Below are positions 5,522-24,338 of a stretch of 24,338 nucleotides of DNA, in pieces. The stretch is from IMG/VR virus record IMGVR_UViG_3300028177_000036, positions 1 to 24,338 of that record. The stretch is one strand, 5' to 3'. The notes beneath the pieces were generated by a model. It saw only the letters and a list, made by a program, of their open reading frames with translations, made no database searches and was not told where the DNA came from. The stretch comes from a virus. Numbering within the stretch: position 1 is the first letter of the stretch; each line of letters opens with the position of its first letter. The position numbers were made by a program, and so were the translations under genes.

Positions 5522-5980
5522 ATGCCAGCAACACAATATACAGGATTTACAGATGCTGAATCTGTAAACAATAGTAAACAAAGTTCTTTCATTTATAAGG
5601 ACTTAAATTTATATTTTACTCGCAATCCGGTTACGAGCGATGTATCTATGGTTACGGACGTGCAAGATATCAAACGTGCCGTCCGTAATATAGTATTACT
5701 TAATCCTGGAGAAAAACCATTTCATCCAGAGATTGGTACTGGTGTAAGAGGTGCATTATTTGAGAATTTTACTCCTCCTATCTTACAAGCTTTGCGAGAT
5801 AGAATAGAGGCGGTGGTTAGTCGTTACGAACCTAGAGTTACAGTTCAATCTGTAAGTTTTAATGATCCCGATTCTCAAAGAATGGACAATAACGAATTAC
5901 GATGTCAAATATCCTTTGTCATCAATAATGCTCCACAGATTATAGAGGAAGTGGATCTAATGCTACAGAGAGTACGATAA
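5522..5980 (+). CDS. gp25: Baseplate wedge protein gp25
   Basis: gp25-family protein (related to TssE of type VI secretion), part of the wedge core that clamps around the hub and helps start sheath assembly. Diagnostic parts are seen: 'IYKDLNLYFTRNPVTSDVSM' near residue 24, 'DVQDIKRAVRNIVLLNPGEK', 'PFHPEIGTGVRGALFENFTP', and the conserved EPR motif in 'VVSRYEPRVTVQSV' (around residue 100). At 152 residues it is slightly longer than T4 gp25 (132). The chosen ATG is the only one upstream of the conserved core; the next Met is inside it. The gene ends in TAATG, sharing one base with the gp6 start, so gp25 and gp6 are probably translationally coupled. Confidence 0.93.
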   Translation: MPATQYTGFTDAESVNNSKQSSFIYKDLNLYFTRNPVTSDVSMVTDVQDIKRAVRNIVLLNPGEKPFHPEIGTGVRGALFENFTPPILQALRDRIEAVVSRYEPRVTVQSVSFNDPDSQRMDNNELRCQISFVINNAPQIIEEVDLMLQRVR

Positions 5981-7896
5981 TGGCCGCAGGAATTAATACT
6001 AAAGGTAAGATGAGTATTACCGAATTAGACTTTGACCAGATCAAAGCTAATATGAAAACATATCTTAAAGGTCAGTCACAATTTACTGATTATGACTTTG
6101 AAGGTTCGGGAATCAATATTCTACTAGACACACTAGCTTACAATACACACTATAATGCCTTCTTGGCTAATATGTTGGCCAATGAAATGTTTTTAGATAC
6201 TGCTCAAAAACGCAATTCGGTGGCTTCTCATGCAAAGGCATTAGGCTATACTCCAGTATCTATTAAAGCACCGACGGCTTATGTGAAAGTACAAGTTAAT
6301 AATGCAATAGGTGCCAATATTATTATGCCTGAAGGTTTTAATTTTATTACTTCAATACAGGGTGTAACCTATCAGTTTGTTAATACTACAGAAAGAATTA
6401 TTCAACCGTCTAGCGGCATTTATGTTTTTGGCGCCTCCAGTGGTATTCCTGTATATGAAGGTACATGGACTACATCACGATTTACTGTTGATCTATCTAA
6501 TGCGGATCAGAAATTCATATTACCTAATATTGGTGTAGATATTTCGACTCTTAAAGTACAGGTGCAGACTAGTGTAGGAGATTCAACTACTGCAACATAT
6601 ACTCCGGCAACTTCACTTGTTGACATTACAGCTACAACTCAAGCTTATTTTGTACAAGAGACTGTAAATGGTGAATGGGAAATTTATTTTGGTGATGGTA
6701 TTGTCGGTAAATCTTTGATAGATGGTAATATCGTTATACTCAAATATGTTATAACTAATGGTGTTGATGCCAATGGTGCAATTTCTTTTACTGCTGATGC
6801 TGGTATCTCAGGTTTTGCTGATATTACTACTACAACTATGACAGCTGCGGCTGGTGGTGCTAATGCGGAAACCATAGAGTCGATGAAGTATAATGCTCCA
6901 TTTAGTTATGCGGCACAAAACAGAACAGTAACAGCAAAAGACTATGCGGCTATTATACCAACCATATATCCTAATGTAGAATCTATTGCAGTATGGGGTG
7001 GTGAGTATAATAATCCTGCGGTATATGGTAAAGTTTATATTAGTATTCGTCCTAAGGCAGGTAATACTTTAACGCAATCAACAAAAACTTCTATTGTTGA
7101 TTCTTTAGAAGATTATAATATTGCATCTGTCACGCCAGTTATACTTGACCCAGAGACTACTAAAATCGTTCCTACGGTCAATTTTAAGTATAACAATACA
7201 TTGACAGACAAGACAAAGGAAAGCCTTGCAGCGCTCATTACAACCGCAATCACGACATGGTCCGATGATAACCTAGAGAAACACGAAGCGATCTTTAGAT
7301 ATTCAAAGTTCACTACTATGATTGATGAGGTAGACCCGTCTATATTGTCAAACATTACCAGAATTAAGATGAGTAAAACATTTTTGCCGACAACAGGCGT
7401 TGCAACAAAATATACTATTCTTTTTGAAAATGCTCTTTATAATCCACATAGTGGCCATGCTGCATCAACAGCGGGCACAACTGCCGGTGGTATTTTATCG
7501 TCTACTGGTTTTAAATATTCTGATGATACTGTAAATGTTTATTATTATGAAGATGATGGTGCTGGTAATATAAATGCTTATTATGTTTCTGGTACATCTA
7601 AAGTATATAAATCTGGTGCCGTAGGAACTATAACCTATGTAACAACCGGAACAGTTACAGGTGGAACTTTAGTATTAACTAAAGAAGATATTGCTTCTGT
7701 AGAAAACTATGATGGTACGACACAAACTTATATTAGACTTACAGTACAACCAAGTTCTAATGATCTTGTCCCCGTAAGAAATCAAGTACTAGAAATTGAT
7801 ACTTATAATATGTCAATCACTGGAGCTGCTGATACTGTAGCTGCCGGTGCATCTGATGGAGGAACACAATACTCCACAAGTAGTTCTTATAATTAA
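5980..7896 (+). CDS. gp6: Baseplate wedge protein gp6 (baseplate J-like)
   Basis: A 638-residue homologue of T4 gp6 (660 residues), the dimeric wedge protein that forms the inner baseplate ring and joins neighbouring wedges. The N-terminal region reads almost as in T4: 'KGQSQFTDYDFEGSGINILL' followed by DTLAYNTHYNAF, NEMFLDTAQKRNSVASHAKALGY (split here for length) around residues 30-90. The middle (roughly residues 290-400) has the baseplate J-like features 'NRTVTAKDYAAIIPTIYPNV', ESIAVWGG and YGKVYISIRPKAG. The C-terminal part (after residue 500) is Tyr/Gly/Thr-rich, as in other marine T4-like gp6 proteins. It starts within the gp25 stop (TAATG) and is followed 2 bases after its stop by gp7, so the wedge genes form one transcription unit. 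Confidence 0.92.
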   Translation: MAAGINTKGKMSITELDFDQIKANMKTYLKGQSQFTDYDFEGSGINILLDTLAYNTHYNAFLANMLANEMFLDTAQKRNSVASHAKALGYTPVSIKAPTAYVKVQVNNAIGANIIMPEGFNFITSIQGVTYQFVNTTERIIQPSSGIYVFGASSGIPVYEGTWTTSRFTVDLSNADQKFILPNIGVDISTLKVQVQTSVGDSTTATYTPATSLVDITATTQAYFVQETVNGEWEIYFGDGIVGKSLIDGNIVILKYVITNGVDANGAISFTADAGISGFADITTTTMTAAAGGANAETIESMKYNAPFSYAAQNRTVTAKDYAAIIPTIYPNVESIAVWGGEYNNPAVYGKVYISIRPKAGNTLTQSTKTSIVDSLEDYNIASVTPVILDPETTKIVPTVNFKYNNTLTDKTKESLAALITTAITTWSDDNLEKHEAIFRYSKFTTMIDEVDPSILSNITRIKMSKTFLPTTGVATKYTILFENALYNPHSGHAASTAGTTAGGILSSTGFKYSDDTVNVYYYEDDGAGNINAYYVSGTSKVYKSGAVGTITYVTTGTVTGGTLVLTKEDIASVENYDGTTQTYIRLTVQPSSNDLVPVRNQVLEIDTYNMSITGAADTVAAGASDGGTQYSTSSSYN

Positions 7897-12774: not shown

Positions 12775-13155
12775 ATGACTGAATACGAACAAATGAGAAT
12801 AGAACTCGCCAAGCAGTTTAGAGAGACAGTTCCAGTGGGTCGCCAAGGACCACTGTTAGATAAAGACGGAAAAGATATGGCCCACGGGATGTATGGTAAG
12901 ACTCAAACGAAGTATCAAAAAGAATGCGCTAGTAAAAGTGCCACAGGTAATACTTGGCGCCGTGGCTCTAAACAGACTGCTGAGGCACGACAGAAGATGA
13001 GCGACAGTATAGATCACAGTGGCGACAATAACCCACGATGGAAAGGTGGTATATCACTGGGCGAGAAAAGGAAAGAGTATATGGCTAACTGGTATAATAA
13101 AAATAAACACCACTATCAAGCTGGTGGTAAGTACAGCGATAGGAAGGCCGCATAA
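12775..13155 (+). CDS. NUMOD3-type homing-endonuclease-like protein, no nuclease domain seen
   Basis: A 126-residue basic protein that does not look structural. 'HGMYGKTQTKYQKE' and 'GNTWRRGSKQTAEARQKMSD' followed by HSGDNNPRWKGG resemble the NUMOD3 DNA-binding motifs (G-K-x-H-S-x-E-x-R-x-K-I-S) and the NPRWKGG element of phage GIY-YIG and HNH homing endonucleases. The C-terminal 'EKRKEYMANWYNKNKHHY' also resembles the basic helices of such enzymes. I see neither a GIY-YIG domain nor a complete HNH motif, so it may be a minimal DNA-binding remnant or a degenerate free-standing endonuclease. It is inserted exactly between gp8 (2-base gap) and the DUF4815 gene (TAATG overlap), and its 3' end supplies the AGGAAGG ribosome site for that gene. 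Its codon use looks richer in G and C than its neighbours. Confidence 0.65.
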   Translation: MTEYEQMRIELAKQFRETVPVGRQGPLLDKDGKDMAHGMYGKTQTKYQKECASKSATGNTWRRGSKQTAEARQKMSDSIDHSGDNNPRWKGGISLGEKRKEYMANWYNKNKHHYQAGGKYSDRKAA

Positions 13156-16100
13156 TGCCAGCAAAAACAGATTTTGATGTATCACCTTACTGGGATGATT
13201 TTAAACTTGATTCAGATTTTTATAGGGTTCTTTTTAGACCGGGCTTTGCAGTTCAGGCTAGAGAATTAACAACACTTCAAACAATACTCCAAAACCAGAT
13301 TGAACAATTTGGTAATCATGTATTTAAAGAAGGTTCTATTGTTATTCCTGGTAGTGTTGGGTATGATAAAAATTATTATGCCTTAAAGGTACAAGCCAGT
13401 TATTTGTCTGGAACGGTTAGTACTTATTTAAGTCAGTATGTTGGTTCTACTATTACAGGCGCTACTTCTGGCGTTACGGCTAGAGTAGTAAATTATTCTG
13501 TGGCAGATTCTACTACTGGTGATCCTGATACTCTATACATTAAGTATATGAATACTTCTACAGCAGATAATTCTACTGTAGTGTTTAGTGATGGTGAAAA
13601 TATTTCTGCTGATAAGATTATTTCATCCTATGCAATAAATATCGCATCTGCTACAGCAGCAGCTTCTGCCGCAACGGCTACTGGTTCTGCGGTTACTGTT
13701 CAGGCTGGTATATATTATGTTCGTGGGTTCATGGTACAGAATACCGAACAAACGATTATACTAGACAAATATACTAACACACCATCATATCGTGTTGGTT
13801 GGACAATAACAGAGACATTAGTTACTCCAGAAATGGACAGTTCTCTACTAGATAATGCACAAGGTTCATCTAACTATGCAGCCAAAGGCGCTCATAGATT
13901 TAAGATGACTTTGGCAATAGCAAAGAAAAGTTTAACCACAACGGATGATTCAGATTTTGTAGAATTGGCTAGACTTAACTCTGGTAGAATTGAAAGCAGA
14001 ATTAAATTTACAGAATATAGTGTTATTGCAGATATGCTTGCTCGTCGTACTGATGATGAGTCTGGTGATTATATTGTAAAACATTTTGATATAGATCCTA
14101 GAGAAAGTTTAGACGATGGTACAAACCGTGGTGTATATACGGCCGCTCAGGGTGGTGATGAGACTAAGGATGTTCTAATCATTTCGCCAGGTAAGGCATA
14201 TGTTGATGGTTATGAATTAGACTTACAGGCGTCACAGTATGTAAATATAGATAAGGCACGAACAACTAAAAATGTACAGAATGATTCTGTTCCTGCAGAC
14301 TTGGGTAACTATGCTCAAGTTGCAAACGTCTATGGACAACCGGACATTAGTGTCGTTGGTGCTACTATAGATGCATTTAAGTTTGTAAAACTATACGACC
14401 AACAGACAACAGTAAGAGGTTCGTCTGCTGGTTCTAATATTGGTTATGCACGATCTCGTTCCTTTGAATATAACAGTGGAACAATAGGTACACATACTGG
14501 TGCTACCAAGGCCATCTATCATCATTATTTGTTTGATGTTTCGTTGTTCAATACGATTGATGTGACCGGTGCCCATACTCTTACTGCTAATGCTGTCATT
14601 ACTGGTGCTACTAGTGGCGCCAATGGTATTCTAGTTGCATCAATTAGTGGCGTTGCTCAATTCCAATTGATGCAACAGGTAGGACAATTTATTGTCGGTG
14701 AAGCAATTACTTCTAGTGTATCCACAGATACTGTTCCTGGTAGTAGTGCTATCTTAGCAACAACTAACTCCACAGCAAATCAAAAGACATTTGCTAGAGA
14801 TGTTAAACAGATTTTTTCTGACAATACTGGATTAGATTATACTGCTGATATGAATTTATCAGAATCGGTAACATTGGGTGGTACTGTTACTTGGGCCACA
14901 GGAACAACTCTTAATGGACTTAATACTACATTTTCGTCTGATTTGGTTGTTGGTGATATTATTTCATTACCTACTGGTGCTGCAGGCATCCAAGAAGAAC
15001 GTAGAGTAACATTGGTTACTAATGATACTACTGTTACAGTAAGTGCAGTGTTTAGTAATGCTGTTACTTCCGTTAATGTTGCACGGCTCAGGGGTAAGAT
15101 CACACAAGAAGAAGAAACTGTATTACTTTATAAATTACCTAAAAATAATGTTAAGACTCTATTAGACAGTGGTGGTGCTACTGATACATCTTATTCATAT
15201 CGTAAACAGTTTACTGGTACAACAAACGCATCTAGTGTTGTCACATTTACACTATCTGCGGGCCATACTTGGGCGGCACCATCCGTAGCTAGAAATTATA
15301 CAATGGTGGTGACTTCGGGCGGTGCATCTGCATCTGTTGGTGATGTGGTTAGTATAACAGGAACAGGAACTACAGTAGGTCAGACACTAACGATTACTGA
15401 TATTCCCTTTCTTGGTGCTAGTACTGGTGTTGAGTTGTTAGGAACTGCTAATTATGCAACATCTCTCCAACGATCCAAAACAGCAAACAAGATGACTTCT
15501 AAACAAATTCAGTCCACTACAGCGGCTGGTACTTATACTTTAGTATTTGGTGAAAGAATTTCTGATGCTGAAATTTCACTTTCATATGCAGACGTTTATA
15601 AATTACACGCCGTATATGAATCTGCCAATGATACAACAGATGCTGTTACACCAACATTAACACTATCAAACAATACAGGGACACTTACAGTAGGTGAAAT
15701 TATTACAGGTAGTGCTTCTGGAGCAACAGGCCGTATAATTTCAACCTCAGGTTCTCCTGTTGTTGCTAAATATGTAAAGATTTCAGGAACATTCACAACA
15801 CTAGATACCATTACTGGCGGAACATCTGCTGTAACAGCTGGTATTAGTGCTCTGACTAATGGTGATCAGAATATCACTTCAAATTTCTTACTTGATACAG
15901 GTCAAAGAGATTCGTTTTATGATGTTGGTCGTATCGCAAGAAAACCAAATGTACAACTCCCAACTGGAAGATTGTTAATCATTTATGATTATTTCTCGCA
16001 CGGTACTGGTGATTATTTCTCAGTAGATTCCTATACAGGTCAGGTAGATTATAAAGACATTCCTAAATATACAGCTTCAAGAGTTGATCCTGATTCTAGG

Positions 16101-19100
16101 GCACCTATTGGTGAATATGAATTGCGGGACGTTATAGATTTTAGGCCTAGAGTAAAAAATCAGATACAAAATGCGGCATTGATTACGGGTAAAAATCCAT
16201 TTTCTTTTATAAACAAAAATTTTGAAGATACTGGTTCTGTAAATGGTAATTTGGTTGCGCCTGATGATAATGTCACTATGGATTTTGATTTTTATCTTGC
16301 TCGTAAAGATTTACTATATCTCAATCGTAGTGGTGATTGGACTATAGTTAAAGGTGTGCCGGCCGAAGCTCCGACCTGGCCTGCCACAGATAATATTGGT
16401 ATGTTAGTATGTAAACTTGGAATCTCTGCCTATACTTTTGAACCTGATAAGATAGATGTAGCCTATTTAAATAATAAAGGCTATACTATGAAAGATATTG
16501 GTAAACTTGAAACCAGAATTGGAAAATTAGAATACACTACTACATTGGCTATGTTGGAAAGAGAAACAGATTCATATATGATTCTGGATGGTGATGGCCT
16601 TAACAGATTTAAGTCTGGTTTTATTGTTGATAATTTTTATGGACATAATATAGGTAATGTTACTCATCCTGATTATCATTGTTCTGTAGATCCTGGGGTT
16701 GGTGTATTGCGTCCTGTTGGAGTTCAAACAGGTGTTAATCTAATAGAAGAAAATACCACCGATGCTCAAAGAGCAACTGATGGTTATCAAAAGACAGGCG
16801 ACCTTATCATGTTGCCTTATACAGAAACCGACGAGGTGATTCAACCCTACGCCAGTCGTGTAGAAAGTGTCAACCCATATAGTGTAACAGAATGGATTGG
16901 TGATCTAGTACTACAACCAGAAACAGATGTATGGATGGATGATGATCGTATCCCCTCTATCACTATTAACGTAGAAGGTAACTATGAACAGTTACTCCGT
17001 GAACAGACAGAGGCTGGAACATTAGGTACTATTTGGAATTCATGGAACACTACATGGACTGGGAATACTTCAACAACCGTCAATACTACTTTTGAAAACC
17101 TAGGGTTACTTTGGGATCCTAATAGAGGCACAACCACAACCACAACAGATGTAAGACAACAACGAACTGGGATGAATACTCGGCTAGTAGAACGTATTGA
17201 TAATATTTCTGCTGGAGATCGTGTAACGAATATAGAAATTGTTCCTTGGATGCGAGCAAGAGATGTAAACTTTACTGTAACTGGTATGAAACCTAATACA
17301 AGAGTTTATGCTTTCTTTGATGGTACAGATGTAAATGCTGATGTTAAACCAACATTAACTAGTGCTAAATCCACAACATTGTCGGTAAATTTAGCAAAAG
17401 CGGATGCTACTACAATAACAGTTGCATCTACAACAGGATTTCCAGATTCAGGAACTATGGCCCTTGGTGATACAAATGAAGTCGATCCTTTTGGTATTGG
17501 ATTTATTAAACAAGAACAAGTTACTTATACAGGAAAAACTTCTACTACATTTACGGGTCTTACTCGCAATACAGGTAATCAATATGAAGAGCCTCAGAAC
17601 TGGTTAGCAACAACTCCGATTGATGATGCTACATATGGTAACCAATTAGTAACTGATGATGTTGGAACTCTTTATGGTAGATTTAAAATACCTAATACAG
17701 ATACTAAACGATTTAGAATAGGCCGAAGAACTTTCCGTTTAACTGATAGTTCTTCCAATTCTCAGACTGTAGGGTTTGTTAATACTTCCGCAGAAAAAGA
17801 ATATATGGCTCTTGGTCATAAACAGACCAAACAAGAACTTATAATGGCAACTCGTAATGCATCAATAACAAGAGTACCATTATCCGAATCTAGACAAACT
17901 ACTGTAACATCAACAAGCGCTGGTGGTGGTGGTTGGTATGATCCATTAGCACAAACTATTATGTGTGATAAAGCAGGTGGTATGTTTATTACTAGTGTTG
18001 ATATTTTCTTTTCACATAAGGCCGCTGCTTTACCAGTATGGATGGAGATACGTTCAGTAATAAATGGATATCCTTCACAAGAAATTTTACCATTTTCTGT
18101 GAAATCATTGCAACCGGCAGATGTCACCGTAAACACAACTGATGGAACTACAGCAACAAAGTTTTTGTTTGATAGTCCAGTTTACTTGCGAGAAAATTTG
18201 GAGTATGCTCTTGTGGTTGCTTCTGATAGTCCAGATTATAAGATTTGGATATCACGATTGGGTGAAGTAGACATTGGTGGTACACGAGCTATTTCCACAC
18301 AACCAACATTAGGTTCGCTGTTTAAATCACAGAACGCATCTACATGGACTGCATCACAATTTGAAGATATGAAATTTACAATGCGCCGAGCAAAATTTAC
18401 AGTTGGTACATCTGCTGAGTTTACTACGGTTAATGAAGCATTTACAGAACAGAATATTAGTGCAGGTGGTGGTAATGGTCTTATACCAAAATTGGCCAGA
18501 AATCCAATAGAAGCTGTAAATGGTAATTCTTTGGTGAAGGTTAATTTTGTTAATCATGGTAATCATGATACGGATAGTTATGTAGAAATTAAGGGTGCTA
18601 TTTCTGATATAGGAAATACTGCATTGAATGGTTCTATTTCTAGTGCCGCTACAACTATTATTTGTGATGATGTTACTAATTTTCCAACAGCAGGCACAGT
18701 AAGGATTGATGATGAACTTATCACATATACAGGTAAGACTGGCACGACACAACTAACAACTTGCACAAGAGGCACCGCTAATGGTGATGGTACAAGTACT
18801 ACAGCAGCAACGCACGATGATAATAGTATAGTATTTTTATATATGTTGGGTGGTATTCCTTTGATTGAAATTAATAAGATACATCCGGCTGTTGCTAATG
18901 TTGAATTGGATAGTTTTACTGTTGTAACAACAACTGCTGCGACTACTAAAGTTACGGCTGGAGGTAGTGATGTTTTTGCAACTAAGAATGTTTCTTATGA
19001 TGTGGTGCAACCTATCATACAAACAATGGAATTACCATATACGACTATTACATCAAAACTACAATCTACAACAGGTTCGACTGTAGGATCAACACAAAAT

Positions 19101-19796
19101 GCCTATCAAAGATTAAGTGCAACTACTGCTATTAGTCTACCCATGAATGAAGATTACTATTTTGATGCACCACAAATCATTTGTTCTCCGGTTAATGAAA
19201 CTAATAACGTGTCAGGCAACAAATCCTTTAGAATGTCTGCAACATTATCAACAACTAAAGATAATGTGAGTCCTGTTATTGATACACAACGAATGTTGGC
19301 GTGCTGTGTATCTAGTCGTATTAATGAGATTGATACTTCTTCAGATGTTAATACAATATTTACAAACTATAAGGCTATGACCGAACCTACTGGTGATAAT
19401 AATAAAGCAATTTATATTACCAAGAAAATTACACTTCAGAGTGCTGCAACAGCATTAAAGGTGTATATAGATGCTGTTCAAATGTCAGAAGCTGATATCC
19501 AAGTTCTATACAAATTGCAACGTATTGATACGGCCGAACCTTTTGAAGATTTGGGTTGGGTGAAGTTTACAGGTGCTGGAGGAACTGCTGATGGTAGACC
19601 TGATCCTTCGGTGGCCACTTCAAAATCAAGACAAGATTTTAGAGAATATCAATATCTTGCTGGTAAGGCTGTAAATGGTACAGGAACTGCTCTGGATGAA
19701 TTTAATGCTTTTGCAATTAAGATTGTAATGCAGGGTAAGAATAGTTCATTACCACCCCTAATTAAAGATTTTAGAGCAATAGCATTGGCAACATAA
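13155..19796 (+). CDS. Giant DUF4815-family virion protein (baseplate periphery / fibre attachment)
   Basis: A 2213-residue structural protein. The N terminus (YWDDFKLDSDFYRVLFRPGF, AVQARELTTLQTILQNQIEQ) is the DUF4815 signature found in many marine myoviruses. Other family landmarks: 'YTASRVDPDSRAPIGEYELR' (about residue 970), 'IGKLETRIGKLEYTTTLAML' (about 1114), 'PNTRVYAFFDGTDV' (about 1385), 'GGMFITSVDIFFSHKAAALP' (about 1608) to WISRLGEVDIGG (about 1705), and the end LPPLIKDFRAIALAT. It sits where T4 has gp9/gp10, so a role in the baseplate periphery and fibre attachment is inferred. Inserted are four or five I-T-G-x-T-S-G-x-x-A repeats (residues about 98-900) and two F-P-x-x-G modules (1409-1475, 1824-1887). 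The start lies in TAATG with AGGAAGG 7 bases upstream. Confidence 0.88.
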   Translation: MPAKTDFDVSPYWDDFKLDSDFYRVLFRPGFAVQARELTTLQTILQNQIEQFGNHVFKEGSIVIPGSVGYDKNYYALKVQASYLSGTVSTYLSQYVGSTITGATSGVTARVVNYSVADSTTGDPDTLYIKYMNTSTADNSTVVFSDGENISADKIISSYAINIASATAAASAATATGSAVTVQAGIYYVRGFMVQNTEQTIILDKYTNTPSYRVGWTITETLVTPEMDSSLLDNAQGSSNYAAKGAHRFKMTLAIAKKSLTTTDDSDFVELARLNSGRIESRIKFTEYSVIADMLARRTDDESGDYIVKHFDIDPRESLDDGTNRGVYTAAQGGDETKDVLIISPGKAYVDGYELDLQASQYVNIDKARTTKNVQNDSVPADLGNYAQVANVYGQPDISVVGATIDAFKFVKLYDQQTTVRGSSAGSNIGYARSRSFEYNSGTIGTHTGATKAIYHHYLFDVSLFNTIDVTGAHTLTANAVITGATSGANGILVASISGVAQFQLMQQVGQFIVGEAITSSVSTDTVPGSSAILATTNSTANQKTFARDVKQIFSDNTGLDYTADMNLSESVTLGGTVTWATGTTLNGLNTTFSSDLVVGDIISLPTGAAGIQEERRVTLVTNDTTVTVSAVFSNAVTSVNVARLRGKITQEEETVLLYKLPKNNVKTLLDSGGATDTSYSYRKQFTGTTNASSVVTFTLSAGHTWAAPSVARNYTMVVTSGGASASVGDVVSITGTGTTVGQTLTITDIPFLGASTGVELLGTANYATSLQRSKTANKMTSKQIQSTTAAGTYTLVFGERISDAEISLSYADVYKLHAVYESANDTTDAVTPTLTLSNNTGTLTVGEIITGSASGATGRIISTSGSPVVAKYVKISGTFTTLDTITGGTSAVTAGISALTNGDQNITSNFLLDTGQRDSFYDVGRIARKPNVQLPTGRLLIIYDYFSHGTGDYFSVDSYTGQVDYKDIPKYTASRVDPDSRAPIGEYELRDVIDFRPRVKNQIQNAALITGKNPFSFINKNFEDTGSVNGNLVAPDDNVTMDFDFYLARKDLLYLNRSGDWTIVKGVPAEAPTWPATDNIGMLVCKLGISAYTFEPDKIDVAYLNNKGYTMKDIGKLETRIGKLEYTTTLAMLERETDSYMILDGDGLNRFKSGFIVDNFYGHNIGNVTHPDYHCSVDPGVGVLRPVGVQTGVNLIEENTTDAQRATDGYQKTGDLIMLPYTETDEVIQPYASRVESVNPYSVTEWIGDLVLQPETDVWMDDDRIPSITINVEGNYEQLLREQTEAGTLGTIWNSWNTTWTGNTSTTVNTTFENLGLLWDPNRGTTTTTTDVRQQRTGMNTRLVERIDNISAGDRVTNIEIVPWMRARDVNFTVTGMKPNTRVYAFFDGTDVNADVKPTLTSAKSTTLSVNLAKADATTITVASTTGFPDSGTMALGDTNEVDPFGIGFIKQEQVTYTGKTSTTFTGLTRNTGNQYEEPQNWLATTPIDDATYGNQLVTDDVGTLYGRFKIPNTDTKRFRIGRRTFRLTDSSSNSQTVGFVNTSAEKEYMALGHKQTKQELIMATRNASITRVPLSESRQTTVTSTSAGGGGWYDPLAQTIMCDKAGGMFITSVDIFFSHKAAALPVWMEIRSVINGYPSQEILPFSVKSLQPADVTVNTTDGTTATKFLFDSPVYLRENLEYALVVASDSPDYKIWISRLGEVDIGGTRAISTQPTLGSLFKSQNASTWTASQFEDMKFTMRRAKFTVGTSAEFTTVNEAFTEQNISAGGGNGLIPKLARNPIEAVNGNSLVKVNFVNHGNHDTDSYVEIKGAISDIGNTALNGSISSAATTIICDDVTNFPTAGTVRIDDELITYTGKTGTTQLTTCTRGTANGDGTSTTAATHDDNSIVFLYMLGGIPLIEINKIHPAVANVELDSFTVVTTTAATTKVTAGGSDVFATKNVSYDVVQPIIQTMELPYTTITSKLQSTTGSTVGSTQNAYQRLSATTAISLPMNEDYYFDAPQIICSPVNETNNVSGNKSFRMSATLSTTKDNVSPVIDTQRMLACCVSSRINEIDTSSDVNTIFTNYKAMTEPTGDNNKAIYITKKITLQSAATALKVYIDAVQMSEADIQVLYKLQRIDTAEPFEDLGWVKFTGAGGTADGRPDPSVATSKSRQDFREYQYLAGKAVNGTGTALDEFNAFAIKIVMQGKNSSLPPLIKDFRAIALAT
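17379..17579 (+). repeat. FPxxG/YTGK module, copy B (in DUF4815 protein)
   Basis: Residues 1409-1475. It follows the common pattern (TTITVASTTGFPDSGTM ... QVTYTGKTSTTFTGLTRNTG), but has an insertion of about 10 residues in the middle (EVDPFGIGF region) and a degenerate end without the S-T-T-A-A-x-H motif. It lies directly after the family's PNTRVYAFFDG segment. Confidence 0.65.
18624..18815 (+). repeat. FPxxG/YTGK module, copy C (in DUF4815 protein)
   Basis: Residues 1824-1887: NFPTAGTVRIDDELITYTGK followed by T-C-T-R-G and, after a short Gly/Asp insertion, S-T-T-A-A-T-H. It is closest to copy A in gp7. It interrupts a region that otherwise reads like a conserved DUF4815 segment (VNHGNHDTDSYVEIKGA before, PLIEINKIHPAVANVELDS after). 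Confidence 0.72.
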
Positions 19797-19797
19797 T

Positions 19798-20019
19798 ATG
19801 GAAAATATTAAAGGTAGAGCTGATATTGTTAGAGACCCAAACACTCGGGCAATAATTAATATAGATGTTGCATCACATGAAACAGCAGTTGCTGCTAGTA
19901 AGGCAAGACAATTGGCAAAAGAACAATTAAAGATAAACACAAACGATATAAATAGTATAAGAGATGAGTTGTCTGATATTAAATCATTATTAAAACAATT
20001 GGTAGATAGAAATGGCTGA
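19798..20019 (+). CDS. Small coiled-coil protein, 73 residues
   Basis: An unnamed small protein of a type I associate with the end of the large structural gene in marine T4-like phages. The N terminus 'KGRADIVRDPNTRAIINIDV' may form a short beta unit. The rest is strongly helical and amphipathic, with heptad-like spacing of Leu/Ile in 'INSIRDELSDIKSLLKQLVD' (residues about 51-70), suggesting a trimeric or dimeric coiled coil. It starts one base after the DUF4815 gene stop with no obvious Shine-Dalgarno sequence, so it is likely coupled, and overlaps the next gene by 8 bases. A chaperone or connector role for the fibres is only an inference. The coding sequence contains an exact late promoter box (19947-19954). 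Confidence 0.65.
   Translation: MENIKGRADIVRDPNTRAIINIDVASHETAVAASKARQLAKEQLKINTNDINSIRDELSDIKSLLKQLVDRNG
19947..19954 (+). promoter_or_regulatory. Candidate internal late promoter TATAAATA
   Basis: An exact TATAAATA within the coiled-coil gene, 58 bases before the next start codon (20012). It could drive the small-protein and fibre block separately from the long transcript across the 6.6-kb DUF4815 gene. Since the box encodes Ile-Asn-Ser in frame and the genome is AT-rich, chance cannot be excluded. Confidence 0.45.
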
Positions 20020-20206
20020 TAGAAATGTAACGGCAAGTGATACATTTGCTGAATTTAGAAACACCATGAATGAAACTATGACCGATGTGGGAGATATCTC
20101 ACAGTTGGGTAGTTCGTTTGGTGGGACACCTACCGATATGGTAGAGGCTTGTAATACTAAGGCAACAGTAGCCTTTGCAATTTCTATGCCGGTGGCTTTA
20201 GGATAA
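20012..20206 (+). CDS. Small tandem paralogue 1, 64 residues
   Basis: A 64-residue protein that aligns without gaps to the next gene product, with about half the positions identical by eye. The pattern is R-x-V-x-x-x-D-x-x-x-E-(F/W)-R, then D-(V/I)-G-D-I-x-x-L, then G-T-P-T-D-(M/L)-V-E-A, ending V-A-L-G. Similar 'DTF-x-x-(F/W)-R ... GD-x-x-L ... V-x-A-x-N' stretches occur, as far as I know, at the N termini of marine phage fibre proteins, where they precede the repeat part. Here the unit is a complete stand-alone gene, so it may be a connector or a fibre base. It starts inside the upstream gene (8-base overlap) and is followed 4 bases later by its paralogue. Confidence 0.68.
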   Translation: MADRNVTASDTFAEFRNTMNETMTDVGDISQLGSSFGGTPTDMVEACNTKATVAFAISMPVALG

Positions 20207-20210
20207 AACG

Positions 20211-20405
20211 ATGGCTAATAGAACAGTACCTACAACCGACAGTATAGAAGAATGGAGAGTTACTTATAATAGTTCGGCTGTTGATATTGGTGATATTGGA
20301 AATCTCAATAATACATTCACAGGCACACCAACAGATTTAGTAGAGGCTGTTAATTCAAAAACAACAACAGGATTTAGTATCGCAATGGCAGTCGCCCTGG
20401 GATAA
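20211..20405 (+). CDS. Small tandem paralogue 2, 64 residues
   Basis: Duplicate of the preceding gene: the same length, no gaps in the alignment, and the same end (VALG). Differences include F to W in the E-(F/W)-R motif and Cys to Val in V-E-A-(C/V)-N. The hydrophobic/Gly-Thr-Pro core (FTGTPTDLVEAVN) is kept, so both copies appear to be under selection. AGGA 8 bases before the ATG (in the tail of copy 1) is a plausible ribosome site. Function as for copy 1: probably a small virion or fibre-base protein, unproven. Having two copies suggests either a heteromer or separate partners for the two different fibres downstream. Confidence 0.7.
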   Translation: MANRTVPTTDSIEEWRVTYNSSAVDIGDIGNLNNTFTGTPTDLVEAVNSKTTTGFSIAMAVALG

Positions 20406-20786: not shown

Positions 20787-21557
20787 ATGGCTAATGACAG
20801 TTATATTGGAACTGGTCCTGCTGATAGAGACCCAACGGTATCGGATAATTCGGTAACGGAAGGGAAGATTGCAAATGACGCCGTAACTAATACCAAGATA
20901 GCCGATAATGCGGTAGATGGTGCTCAGATTGCTTTGACAGGAAATGTTCAAGGCGCTGTTATGTATTATAATGGAACTGATTGGATAGTTTTGACTCCTG
21001 GAACTTCGGGCGAAGCATTAAAAACTCAAGGTGCAGGACAGAATGTAGTATGGGGTGCAGTATCTTCTACTGGTGATTTTGCCAACGGTGGTGATACGGC
21101 TACTGCAAATAGAACCCTTGGTAATAACGATAATTTTGAATTAGGGTTTGAAACTAATGCTATCAATTGGTTGAATATCAATACAGACGGCATACCAGAA
21201 ATTACTGGTGGACTATCGGCGAACTTTGATACAGCTGGAGTTGGTACTACATTAAGTGCTGGTATAGATGCGTCTGTAACAACCATACCCATAACGAGTT
21301 CTACAGGATTTCCAGCTACAGGAACCGTGGGAGTAGGAACAGAAGAAATTACATATACAGGTGTAGTAGGAAATACTTTAACCGGCGCTACAAGAGGTGC
21401 TAATAGCACAACAGCAGCCGCACATCTTTCAGCTGCTGCAATAGGAACAGTATTCAGTACTCCTGCTAATTATAATGCATTGTCAGCGGGACCTATAGGA
21501 GTAGCGGTGGGGTCAACAATATCATTAGGTACTGATTCAACTTGGACGGTCGTATGA
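20787..21557 (+). CDS. Fibre-like structural protein with FPxxG module, 256 residues
   Basis: A likely tail-fibre or fibre-base protein. Residues 1-90 contain 'VTEGKIANDAVTNTKIADNA' and 'VMYYNGTDWIVLTPGTSGEA', both common in phage fibre N-terminal regions. Residues about 97-140 contain 'NGGDTATANRTLGNNDNFEL' and 'GFETNAINWLNI', a motif seen in marine fibre proteins before a variable tip. Residues 156-213 are copy D of the F-P-x-x-G module. The protein is short for a full fibre and has no chaperone-type C-terminal domain that I can identify. Its last codons share ATGA with the next gene (21554-21557), so translation is coupled to the first adhesin gene. GAGGA lies about 12 bases before the start. 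Confidence 0.72.
   Translation: MANDSYIGTGPADRDPTVSDNSVTEGKIANDAVTNTKIADNAVDGAQIALTGNVQGAVMYYNGTDWIVLTPGTSGEALKTQGAGQNVVWGAVSSTGDFANGGDTATANRTLGNNDNFELGFETNAINWLNINTDGIPEITGGLSANFDTAGVGTTLSAGIDASVTTIPITSSTGFPATGTVGVGTEEITYTGVVGNTLTGATRGANSTTAAAHLSAAAIGTVFSTPANYNALSAGPIGVAVGSTISLGTDSTWTVV
21252..21425 (+). repeat. FPxxG/YTGK module, copy D (in fibre-like protein)
   Basis: Residues 156-213 of the 256-residue protein: TTIPITSSTGFPATGTVGVG, E-E-I-T-Y-T-G, G-N-T-L-T-G-A-T-R-G, S-T-T-A-A-A-H. It has the same order and spacing as copy A in gp7, 10 kb upstream, in a protein with no other similarity to gp7. Confidence 0.75.
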
Positions 21558-22036
21558 GCAAATTAAGAGTAAACGAACTAGATACAAGAAGTGGAACTAC
21601 TGTAACAGTAACCACTGGTAAGACATTGGATGTGCCTGCTGGTGCAACAATAACTGTAGCAGGAACACAAACTGTTTCCGGTACTCAAACAGTTAGTGGT
21701 GCTCAAACGAATACTGGTACATTAGATATATCAAGTGCTACAGTAACATTACCGGCTACATTGCCGGCGACAATAGGAACTAATATAACACAACTTCCTG
21801 GTGCAAATATTACTGGAACTATTCCATTAGCTGCATTGGGTAATGCTCCTGCTACGGATGTAACTGGTTTAGAGAACGATATAGCACTACTTGGTTTTAA
21901 GGTTGCCTCCAACGGTAGTTTGGTAAAATATAATCTAGTAGACCAAACAGTTGATGACTTTCAGGATGCGTCAGGTGTAAATGCGGGTGGATCGACTGAC
22001 GCAATAAGAAATGTTACTTCAAAGTATTATAGCGGA
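21554..22036 (+). repeat. Shared adhesin N-terminal module, first copy
   Basis: Codons 1-161 of the LamG fibre gene. It corresponds to 23071-23508 in the next gene, and the product patterns run in parallel: V-N-E-(L/I)-D-x-(R/K)-(S/T)-G-T-T-(V/I)-T-V-T-T-G-K-T-L-D-V-P, later G-A-N-I-T-G-T-I-P, D-D-(or N-D-)I-A-L-L-x-F-K, Y-N-L-V-D-Q, and K-Y-Y-S-G. The first copy has about 15 more residues, partly from a repeated T-Q-T-V-S-G. Confidence 0.8.
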
Positions 22037-23065
22037 GCGTTAGAAGGCCCAGCGATTGATGGCTATATAGAAACATTGTTTCATGGTGATGGAGCAAATA
22101 GCGGAACAACTTTTACGGATTCATCTAGTAATGCATTTACCGTTCAGTCTAGCGGTAGCATAGTAACCTCCACAACCAGCCCAAAGTTTGGCACTGCATC
22201 TATTCATGTTCCAAACGCAACTAGCGACTATATATATTGGGGTGCGGGCAGTGCTAATCTGGATTATGGTGCTAACCCGTGGACTATTAGTTTCTGGATA
22301 AAGACAACTCATTCTAGTGGTACAGGAAAAATACTTGGAAGAAATAATGGCAGTGCTGGTAATCATAATTTCGATATAAGCGTTAATATTTCTTCAACTG
22401 GTATGATGTCTATTACCACTAATACTAATACCGAATACGTTAGTGCGGGATTAACAACTACCGCTGTTAATGATGGGGCGTGGCATCATGTTGAATTTAC
22501 TAGATCAAGTCAATATATCCGTGGTTTTATAGATGGTGTGCTTGAGGGTACTACAGACGTTACCGTTAATTCCGTAATCAATAGGACATCGTCGGCTATT
22601 TATTTGGGTTATATGAATGGTGGTCATTATGGGGGTGCTGTTTGTTATCTAGATGAAGTTGAGATTTCTCTAGGTATTGCTAGGCACACAGCGACTTTTA
22701 CTCCACCTGTCGCTGCGTGGGGAGAAAGTGAAGCGGCGAATATGACTTTAGTTTCGGCAACAACAGCCGCACAAGCTGCACCCACTAAAGGAGATATAGT
22801 TCTTACTCATACCAATGGTGCTGGATCAACCACTTTAGGTACTGACCTCACCGCAGAAATAAGCGCAGACGGTGGAAGCACATGGACGGCGATGACTTTG
22901 GGGTCAGAAGGAAGCACAGGTACTCACAATATTGCTACAGCCCACAACGTAACCATAACAAGTACAATCACCGCTCCATATAATATGGCATATAGAATAA
23001 AGACTTTGAATCAGGCTGTAGGCAAAACCACAAGAATCCACGCTGTCAGTCTAGGATGGAGTTAA
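21554..23065 (+). CDS. Modular tail fibre/adhesin with LamG-like domain, 503 residues
   Basis: Probable receptor-binding fibre. The start is ATG 21554 (overlap ATGA with the previous stop); a TTG four codons upstream would add only MDGR and is less likely. Residues 1-161 (MSKLRVNELDTRSG ... KYYSG) are a Thr/Val/Gly-rich anchor homologous to the next gene. Residues about 172-387 are a LamG/concanavalin-like domain (Laminin_G_3 type): ETLFHGDGANSGTTFTDSSS, WTISFWIKT, WHHVEFTRSSQYIRGFIDGV, YLDEVEISLGIARHTATFTP. Residues about 395-503 form a further module (EISADGGSTWTAMTLG ... AYRIKTLN ... TRIHAVSLGWS) known from marine fibres. LamG folds usually bind carbohydrates, so a surface sugar receptor is inferred. 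Confidence 0.85.
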   Translation: MSKLRVNELDTRSGTTVTVTTGKTLDVPAGATITVAGTQTVSGTQTVSGAQTNTGTLDISSATVTLPATLPATIGTNITQLPGANITGTIPLAALGNAPATDVTGLENDIALLGFKVASNGSLVKYNLVDQTVDDFQDASGVNAGGSTDAIRNVTSKYYSGALEGPAIDGYIETLFHGDGANSGTTFTDSSSNAFTVQSSGSIVTSTTSPKFGTASIHVPNATSDYIYWGAGSANLDYGANPWTISFWIKTTHSSGTGKILGRNNGSAGNHNFDISVNISSTGMMSITTNTNTEYVSAGLTTTAVNDGAWHHVEFTRSSQYIRGFIDGVLEGTTDVTVNSVINRTSSAIYLGYMNGGHYGGAVCYLDEVEISLGIARHTATFTPPVAAWGESEAANMTLVSATTAAQAAPTKGDIVLTHTNGAGSTTLGTDLTAEISADGGSTWTAMTLGSEGSTGTHNIATAHNVTITSTITAPYNMAYRIKTLNQAVGKTTRIHAVSLGWS

Positions 23066-23070
23066 AATAA

Positions 23071-23508
23071 ATGAGTAAACTGAAAGTAAACGAAATAGAT
23101 TCCAAAACAGGGACTACTATTACAGTCACTACCGGGAAGACATTAGATGTTCCTGCAACAAGTACATTAACGGTAGCTGGAACTCAAACAGTAACTGGTA
23201 CAGTAAATCTAACTAGTTCTACATTAACGCTGCCCGCTACATTACCGGCTTCATCTGCTGCTAATTTAACGAATATTCCTGGTGCAAATATAACTGGAAC
23301 TATTCCAGCTGCTGCATTAAGTAATGTAGATACGACTGGACTCCAAGACGATATAGCCCTTCTTGCTTTCAAGACACAAGCAAACGGTTCTTTGGCTCGC
23401 TATAATTTGGTAGATCAATCCGTGGATGCCTTTGAAGATGCTTCTGGTGTAGATACATCGGCTTCTACTAATGATGGTAGAAATTCATCTGGGAAATACT
23501 ACAGTGGA
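23071..23508 (+). repeat. Shared adhesin N-terminal module, second copy
   Basis: Codons 1-146 of the glycine-rich adhesin, paralogous to 21554-22036. The DNA has drifted, mostly at third positions, but short identical blocks remain (for example GGTGCAAATAT and ACTGGAACTATTCCA), so the two copies could recombine only inefficiently now. Confidence 0.8.
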
Positions 23509-24338
23509 GTTGGATCGGTTACTGCTACAGGTGGAACGATCACAGTAGATGGTGATTATACCGTACATAAATTTACTGTTGTTGGAAACTCAACTTTTAC
23601 TACCGATACTGCTCAAGATGTAGAATATCTTGTAGTGGGTGGTGGTGGAGCCGGTGGTGGTACTGGTACTGGTTCTAATCACATGGGTGGAGGCGGTGGA
23701 GCTGGTGGTTTTAGAACTGCTACTGGTTTTCCTGTAACAGCAACAAGTTATACAATTACAGTAGGAGCTGGTGGTACTGCTGCCACTGATGCAAGTGGTA
23801 ATTCTGGTGCAAATTCTGTATTTTCTACCATAACAGCAGCCGGTGGTGGTGGCGGTGGTGGCCCGGCTATAGTTGGTACTGCTGGTGGTTCTGGTGGTGG
23901 TGGCTCATACGATCATGCCGGTGGTGCTGGTAATACACCATCTACATCTCCTGCACAAGGTTTTGCTGGCGGTACATCTGGTGCCGGTGGTGCAACAGCT
24001 GGTGGTGGTGGAGCTAGTGAAGTAGGTGAAGGTGCAGCATCGACATCTGGGCCTTCTGGAGCTGGTGGGGCTGGGACGGCCAATGATATAGTATTAGCCA
24101 GCACCAATGTCACCTATGCTGGTGGTGGGGGTGGTGGTAAATCTAATGATTATTCAGGCGGTGCTGGTGCTGGCGGTGCTGGTGGGGGCGGTGCTGGTGG
24201 GAAGGGGGCTGTCGGAAATGCTGGCACAGCAAATACTGGAGGTGGTGGCGGTGGTGCTGGTAATGATTCTGGCGTCAATAAACTTGGTGGTGTTGGTGGT
24301 TCAGGCATAGTGGTTATTAGAAGGCCAACTGGTGGTAG
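23071..24338 (+). CDS. Glycine-rich modular adhesin (partial, continues past the window)
   Basis: An open reading frame from ATG 23071 to the window edge (422 full codons, no stop in frame). Residues 1-146 are homologous to the N terminus of the LamG fibre gene, ending at KYYSG. Residues about 150-187 form a beta region (FTVVGNSTFTTDTAQDVEYL) that leads into a glycine-rich domain from residue 188 on, with long Gly runs broken by short variable stretches (AGGFRTATGFPV, YTITVGAGG, SVFSTITAAGG, YAGGGGGGKSND). It reaches the typical end GGSGIVVIRRPTGG just before the edge. This pattern is known from marine phage fibres; polyglycine II helices form the receptor-binding tip of T4-like phage adhesins such as gp38 of S16. 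GGAG lies 11 bases upstream of the start. Confidence 0.82.
   Translation, partial: MSKLKVNEIDSKTGTTITVTTGKTLDVPATSTLTVAGTQTVTGTVNLTSSTLTLPATLPASSAANLTNIPGANITGTIPAAALSNVDTTGLQDDIALLAFKTQANGSLARYNLVDQSVDAFEDASGVDTSASTNDGRNSSGKYYSGVGSVTATGGTITVDGDYTVHKFTVVGNSTFTTDTAQDVEYLVVGGGGAGGGTGTGSNHMGGGGGAGGFRTATGFPVTATSYTITVGAGGTAATDASGNSGANSVFSTITAAGGGGGGGPAIVGTAGGSGGGGSYDHAGGAGNTPSTSPAQGFAGGTSGAGGATAGGGGASEVGEGAASTSGPSGAGGAGTANDIVLASTNVTYAGGGGGGKSNDYSGGAGAGGAGGGGAGGKGAVGNAGTANTGGGGGGAGNDSGVNKLGGVGGSGIVVIRRPTGG

Follow-up and report, generated by a model that had tools for sequence, protein, structure and literature searches.

Putative tandem tail adhesins of a T4-like marine myophage carry swappable tips between two co-varying modules

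How do two neighbouring phage genes come to share one beginning and yet carry tips of unrelated folds, and what does the rest of each protein contribute to such an arrangement? The question is raised by the right end of the window, the whole stretch of DNA analyzed here, which is a 24,338-base fragment of the IMG/VR record IMGVR_UViG_3300028177_000036. The exchange of tail-fibre tips is a well-established way for phages to change what they stick to. Many phage fibres need a dedicated chaperone, and why swapped tips still fold and trimerise is less understood. Most of the abundant marine phages are uncultured.

The genes in question are co-oriented neighbours that lie 5 bases apart in the ORF listing of the window. 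The ATG of gene 1 also overlaps the stop of the gene that precedes it, and the two adhesin genes are probably co-translated.

21554-23065, plus strand: gene 1, 503 aa, with a LamG tip
23071-24338, plus strand: gene 2, 422 aa, with no stop before the contig end

An earlier note on this DNA had described a shared N-terminus of 161 and 146 residues in these products, followed by a sharp switch. Both observations are borne out by composition-adjusted BLASTP, in which 99 of 161 N-terminal residues are identical (61%, E 3e-50), a score that rejects mere likeness of composition. The alignment stops exactly at residues 161 and 146, past which BLASTP finds no significant similarity between the two proteins. 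We collected relatives from IMG/VR, with loci labelled by an L and a number, and aligning the related phages' loci, which the note had suggested for locating the module boundary, again gives a sharp joint: mean pairwise identity is 0.52 over the last 10 residues of the connector described next, versus 0.18 over the following 10.

Comparison with these relatives indicates that each protein very probably consists of four parts, namely an anchor, a connector (MID), a tip and a conserved C-terminal domain (CTD), with the CTD of gene 2 predicted to lie past the contig end.

21554-21856, plus strand: gene 1 anchor, the phage-specific N-terminus (residues 1-101, MSKLRVNELD...)
21857-22036, plus strand: gene 1 MID connector (residues 102-161, ending in KYYSG)
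22037-22738, plus strand: gene 1 tip, LamG / ConA-like lectin (Pfam core 22220-22666)
22739-23062, plus strand: gene 1 CTD (residues 396-503)
23071-23328, plus strand: gene 2 anchor (residues 1-86, MSKLKVNEID...)
23329-23508, plus strand: gene 2 MID connector (residues 87-146, ending in KYYSG)
23509-24336, plus strand: gene 2 tip, a glycine-rich adhesin domain (reading frame still open where the contig stops)

The shared N-terminal block is real, but it is made of two modules, a phage-specific anchor and the MID, rather than one. Between genes 1 and 2 the anchors are 71% identical in amino acids and 75% in nucleotides, and the MIDs are 63% identical in nucleotides. The gene 1 anchor has 72-80% amino acid identity to the anchors of genes A and B in each of two related loci (L179 and L180) and no match among cultured phages, and the gene 2 anchor has 76% identity to that of L179 gene B. 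The MID, which is present in many phages, has 60 residues (DDIALLGFKVAxNGSLAKYNLVDQTVDDFQDASGV...KYYSG; mean column identity 67% over the 52 sequences of alignment A1), and it matches no entry in Pfam or PHROGs. The CTD has about 108 residues (NMTLVSTTTAAQAAPTKGDIV...AVSLGWS; mean column identity 74% over the 42 sequences of alignment A2) and has no Pfam match.

MID and CTD occur together in 191 ORFs, 124 after removing redundancy, and the ORF ends exactly with the CTD in 120 of these 124. A MID without a CTD is found in 22 ORFs, 21 of which run off their contig; the remaining one (L022) is a split ORF. Gene 2 breaks off at VVIRRPTGG, where its best relative, gene 2 of L018, reads VVIRRPTTGG and then continues into a CTD. 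Because MID-only ORFs are either contig-cut or split, and because the L018 gene continues in this way, gene 2 very probably has its CTD past the contig end.

The tips had been described as C-terminal, which does not hold: they are internal, between the MID and the conserved CTD, since the last module of protein 1 is the CTD and the contig stops just before gene 2 would reach its expected CTD. The C-termini had likewise been called completely different. This is correct for the tips (LamG versus glycine-rich) but not for the last ~108 residues of protein 1, which are the conserved CTD, and since this CTD follows glycine-rich tips in relatives too, the difference is probably confined to the tip. 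The ‘second module’ noticed in protein 1 does exist, as this CTD and not as part of the unique tip.

The tips themselves can be assigned to folds. In protein 1, residues 223-371 match Laminin_G_3 (PF13385, 9e-16; 58.8 bits, above the curated cut-off of 27.6), and the modelled LamG region matches generic ConA-like folds, with low model confidence for the anchor and for much of the LamG region itself. Residues 170-417 of protein 2 match Gly_rich_2 (PF21722, 7e-25); against cultured phages gene 2 had no matches, probably an effect of low-complexity filtering. The model of this tip, with pLDDT above 90 across most of its length, superposes on the Pam3 fibre 7ypx (Z 16.4, rmsd 2.6 Å over 187 residues, 30% identity) and on the Bxb1 tail tip (Z 15.5), and its best non-phage fold match is ALK (Z about 8). 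As modelled, the gene 2 tip has the TNF-like plus glycine-rich fold of cyanophage Pam3 gp24. That fibre, as described, has an N-terminal helix anchor and three domains only, whereas the tip here is preceded by a MID and should be followed by a CTD. Similarly, the gene 1 tip resembles the LamG / ConA-like lectin domains of other phage structural proteins but lies inside the MID-CTD frame. These tips would contact the host surface, one as a LamG lectin and the other as a Pam3-type glycine-rich adhesin, and both adhesins may be displayed simultaneously. Matches of the LamG tip to neurotoxin binding domains, and a Pfam Toxin_R_bind_N match in L108, were traced to the common ConA-like lectin fold, and no relation to toxins is claimed. 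One relative (L064 769-2859) is a single protein with a glycine-rich tip plus a LamG domain inserted within its CTD.

Tandem duplication followed by divergence, with no exchange of tips among phages, would be one possible origin for adjacent, co-oriented genes whose anchors are this alike in DNA and hold direct repeats:

21681-21845, plus strand: direct repeat copy 1, anchor region, 165 nt (73% identity)
23162-23326, plus strand: direct repeat copy 2, anchor region, 165 nt (spacing 1481)

We nevertheless consider this origin very improbable, given that the two tips have unrelated folds and that the nearest relative of each lies in another phage, behind a different anchor. The tip closest to that of gene 1 is in L046 gene 2 (69% amino acid identity; anchors 27%), and the tip closest to that of gene 2 is in L018 gene 2 (87%; anchors 32%). 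Among the relatives, the same anchor with unrelated tips and the same tip with unrelated anchors both occur at the nucleotide level. L004 and L045 are 33% identical in the anchor, 72% in the MID, 86% in the tip and 68% in the CTD, and L038 and L032 are 48% identical in the anchor, 89% in the tip and 69% in the CTD. Conversely, L010 and L012 are 99% identical in the anchor and 87% in the MID versus 53% in the tip. In gene 1 of L010, MID and CTD are both variants, and behind them stand the final codons of a canonical CTD, a scar left by replacement. We conclude from these alignments that tips have been exchanged between phages; recombination in and around the MID and CTD would swap them both among tandem copies and among phages. 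The proposal of a constant part with exchangeable tips is upheld by these swaps, although the KYYSG joint separates connector from tip and not anchor from tip. Most tips in the first-analyzed genes are glycine-rich, the others being LamG and a third type, and F5/8-type-C-like tips are also present in the wider loci.

Domain shuffling in phage receptor-binding proteins has been described, with near-identical N-termini joined to non-homologous binding domains and with fibres and spikes showing recent sharing between taxonomic families (PMC10684548). The fibre examples in that work swap a terminal domain, whereas here a matched pair brackets the tip. Tandem adhesins with different tips also recall the invertible tail-fibre module of the haloarchaeal phiCh1 type, which PMC8651126 mentions. 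A programmed variation cassette, either a phase-variable inversion or a diversity-generating retroelement, is nonetheless extremely improbable at this locus, where both genes have the same orientation and no inverted repeats of at least 20 nt occur in 21400-24338. Neither a reverse transcriptase nor a serine recombinase is encoded in the record, but this is a 24-kb fragment, and an enzyme farther away is possible.

Which phage carries these genes is indicated by what lies upstream.

13155-19796, plus strand: VrlC-type baseplate protein, left edge of the host-recognition cluster (phrog_358, full score)
20787-21557, plus strand: 256-aa protein overlapping the start of gene 1 (weak PHROG tail-fibre match, residues 17-49)

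The window has the order gp25, gp6, wedge protein, gp8, VrlC and a small phrog_473 gene, which is the order in HTVC008M, Mosig and Melnitz, and its VrlC is 35-42% identical to VrlC or baseplate proteins of cultured phages. Both adhesin genes lie a short distance behind VrlC and the structural gene of phrog_473. In pelagimyophages, tail-fibre genes usually come after VrlC, within a host-recognition cluster that is hypervariable, according to passages of PMC7029224, and the passages concerned of that study and of Mizuno et al. on metaviromic islands (PMC3909814) place variable putative receptor-binding genes with concanavalin-type domains at the same position. These passages treat variability of genes or islands and do not contain the MID-CTD frame, and the terms glycine and lectin are absent from PMC7029224. 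MID and CTD are absent from the compared stretch of HTVC008M, Mosig and Melnitz.

Searching with the anchor identified a syntenic sister, L179, that is 67-71% identical to the window in core nucleotides and 61% at the VrlC end; the anchors are about 78% identical, and the tips that follow are unrelated. Three tandem genes in L179 share the window's anchor. Gene A combines it with another connector and a glycine-rich tip and has neither MID nor CTD, gene B has the anchor, MID, a different tip and CTD, and gene C is cut at the contig end. The suggestion that further copies occur is thereby supported, and because the sister has three, more adhesin copies to the right of the window are plausible. 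Taken together, these observations make it highly probable that genes 1 and 2 are tandem tail adhesins of a T4-like marine myophage, situated at the start of its host-recognition cluster, with swappable tips in a MID-CTD frame. The anchor, which is common within this phage group, is most likely the part by which the fibre docks to the virion.

Other features of this region also deserve mention. The 256-aa upstream gene is unusually conserved in L179 (93% amino acid and 92% nucleotide identity over 20787-21557, while flanking core genes are at 61-71%), and we read this segment as possibly recently exchanged or as a recombination arm. Two tandem 64-aa paralogues (20012-20206 and 20211-20405), paired in L179 as well, match about 50 N-terminal residues of the larger proteins that HTVC008M, Mosig and Melnitz encode at this position, and they appear to be stand-alone N-terminal pieces of fibre-like proteins. 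Between gp8 and VrlC, a lysine-rich 126-aa ORF (12775-13155) with no Pfam or PHROGs match resembles a homing-endonuclease fragment, by eye only.

If tips are exchanged, what do the modules on either side contribute? Across 121 genes, pairwise identities of MID and CTD have a rank correlation of 0.69, and the partial rho with the tip held constant is 0.61 (p 0.002), a p-value that is merely indicative because the sequences share ancestry and independence is overstated. With the CTD held constant, the MID-tip correlation in these genes is 0.26; in a narrower first set it falls to 0.11, which is not significant, versus 0.64 for MID and CTD. For the anchor, identities show no correlation in the first set and a weak one in the larger (0.13-0.21, with anchor and MID at rho 0.21). 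A variant MID is always paired with a variant CTD (L010, L018, L019 and L180). By these comparisons, MID and CTD appear to be a matched pair that brackets the tip.

One way to account for the CTD is as a second receptor-binding domain that binds carbohydrate, which would give two binding heads per protein. Its model is all-beta (pLDDT about 88-96), and its profile is weakly similar to a sialidase region (7lbu, E 0.002). However, MS2 coat proteins outscored the sialidase in the same search, and we judged both relations to be chance or too weak. Moreover, conservation is much higher in the CTD than in the tips (median identity 67% versus 40%), and the same CTD stands behind LamG, glycine-rich and other tips, so a second head seems improbable to us. 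A relation of the MID to the NusA repeat (E 0.006 in a PDB search) disappeared when the MID profile was used.

Glycine-rich genes that have no CTD provide a potential explanation of the pair. In L179, a 129-aa ORF (5615-6004, phrog_7759) lies directly behind the CTD-less gene A. Such a small ORF is directly downstream of 14 of 19 CTD-less glycine-rich genes and of 0 of 77 CTD-bearing ones in the non-redundant set (Fisher 5e-13), although this value overstates independence, as the sequences share ancestry. The pool was gathered through MID, CTD or anchor and is biased, but the two kinds are often found in the same locus. Three of the five exceptions have, by eye, a shorter, similar-looking ORF. 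The same arrangement of glycine-rich gene and small ORF is found in the cultured phages HTVC025P, CRP-143, CRP-207 and Melnitz; CRP-143 has further CTD-less glycine-rich genes without an adjacent small ORF of their own, and in Greip the small ORF is located away from any glycine-rich gene. In the window, the contig stops inside gene 2, and the 77 CTD-bearing relatives have no such ORF directly downstream.

The Pam3 glycine-rich fibre gp24 requires a small phage-encoded chaperone, gp25 (PMC9608196; PDB 7ypx, 7yfw). By sequence, the small ORF matched none of the solved fibre chaperones, Pam3 gp25 included; we nominate phrog_7759 as a candidate fibre chaperone family. Another solution is the C-terminal intramolecular chaperone (Peptidase_S74, as in K1F and T5), likewise a conserved C-terminal domain behind unrelated binding parts, and in HTVC008M a fibre encoded shortly behind VrlC ends in an S74 domain. 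Peptidase_S74 (PF13884) has no match anywhere in the window, and the CTD differs from it in that it is modelled as all-beta and is coupled to another module, the MID.

From the exclusivity of the small ORF, the chaperone need of Pam3 gp24 and the S74 end of the HTVC008M fibre, we infer that MID and CTD may jointly form a split presentation and assembly frame, which would do in cis the job of the separate small chaperone of CTD-less glycine-rich fibres. We regard the replacement of a separate helper by this built-in frame as an evenly balanced proposal. It is also possible, though we lean against it, that MID and CTD have a structural role alone, as the two pieces of a platform beneath the tip that serves docking or trimerisation and does no chaperoning, and that the small ORF is an unrelated accessory. 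Their co-variation independent of the tip fits such a platform, as would a MID that packs on the CTD: MID pLDDT is 69-86 in gene 1, with the CTD present, versus 42-49 in gene 2, with it missing, although the two predictions came from different alignments. The platform alone, however, leaves the pattern of the small ORF unexplained.

If the built-in assembly frame is correct, a tip-bracketing frame that is mutually exclusive with the small ORF would explain how unrelated tips move between unrelated phages. The adhesin pair is of a known general kind, and the MID-CTD frame is a little-described form of tip swapping, of which our literature search found no description. The frame also offers a simple means to find adhesins and tips in marine phages, and the phrog_7759 proteins are testable candidates for a chaperone family.

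The frame is not confined to T4-like neighbourhoods. Seventy-six other loci adjoin a protein that matches the ‘particle protein’ of podoviruses such as Pseudomonas phage tf, and the L051 locus has a tape-measure gene, which together place the frame in quite different tailed phages. Tentatively, and with somewhat more doubt than belief, we propose that MID and CTD are halves of one undescribed plug-in frame, which would let tips of unrelated folds do without a separate chaperone and would be mobile across myovirus, podovirus and other tailed-phage backbones, phages choosing among this frame in cis, a small-ORF chaperone in trans and S74. Related modules also appear in cellular genome records. 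A 3380-aa frame in a Woesearchaeota MAG (L075 2170-12309) has MID-like, tip and CTD-like modules, which would lie outside phages if the Woesearchaeota bin is right. Finally, alphaproteobacterial genomes (Magnetospirillum, Kiloniella, Shinella and others; L065-L067 and L069-L074) encode tail-fibre-like proteins with the CTD and often the MID, and one of these loci, L066, has three such proteins in tandem.
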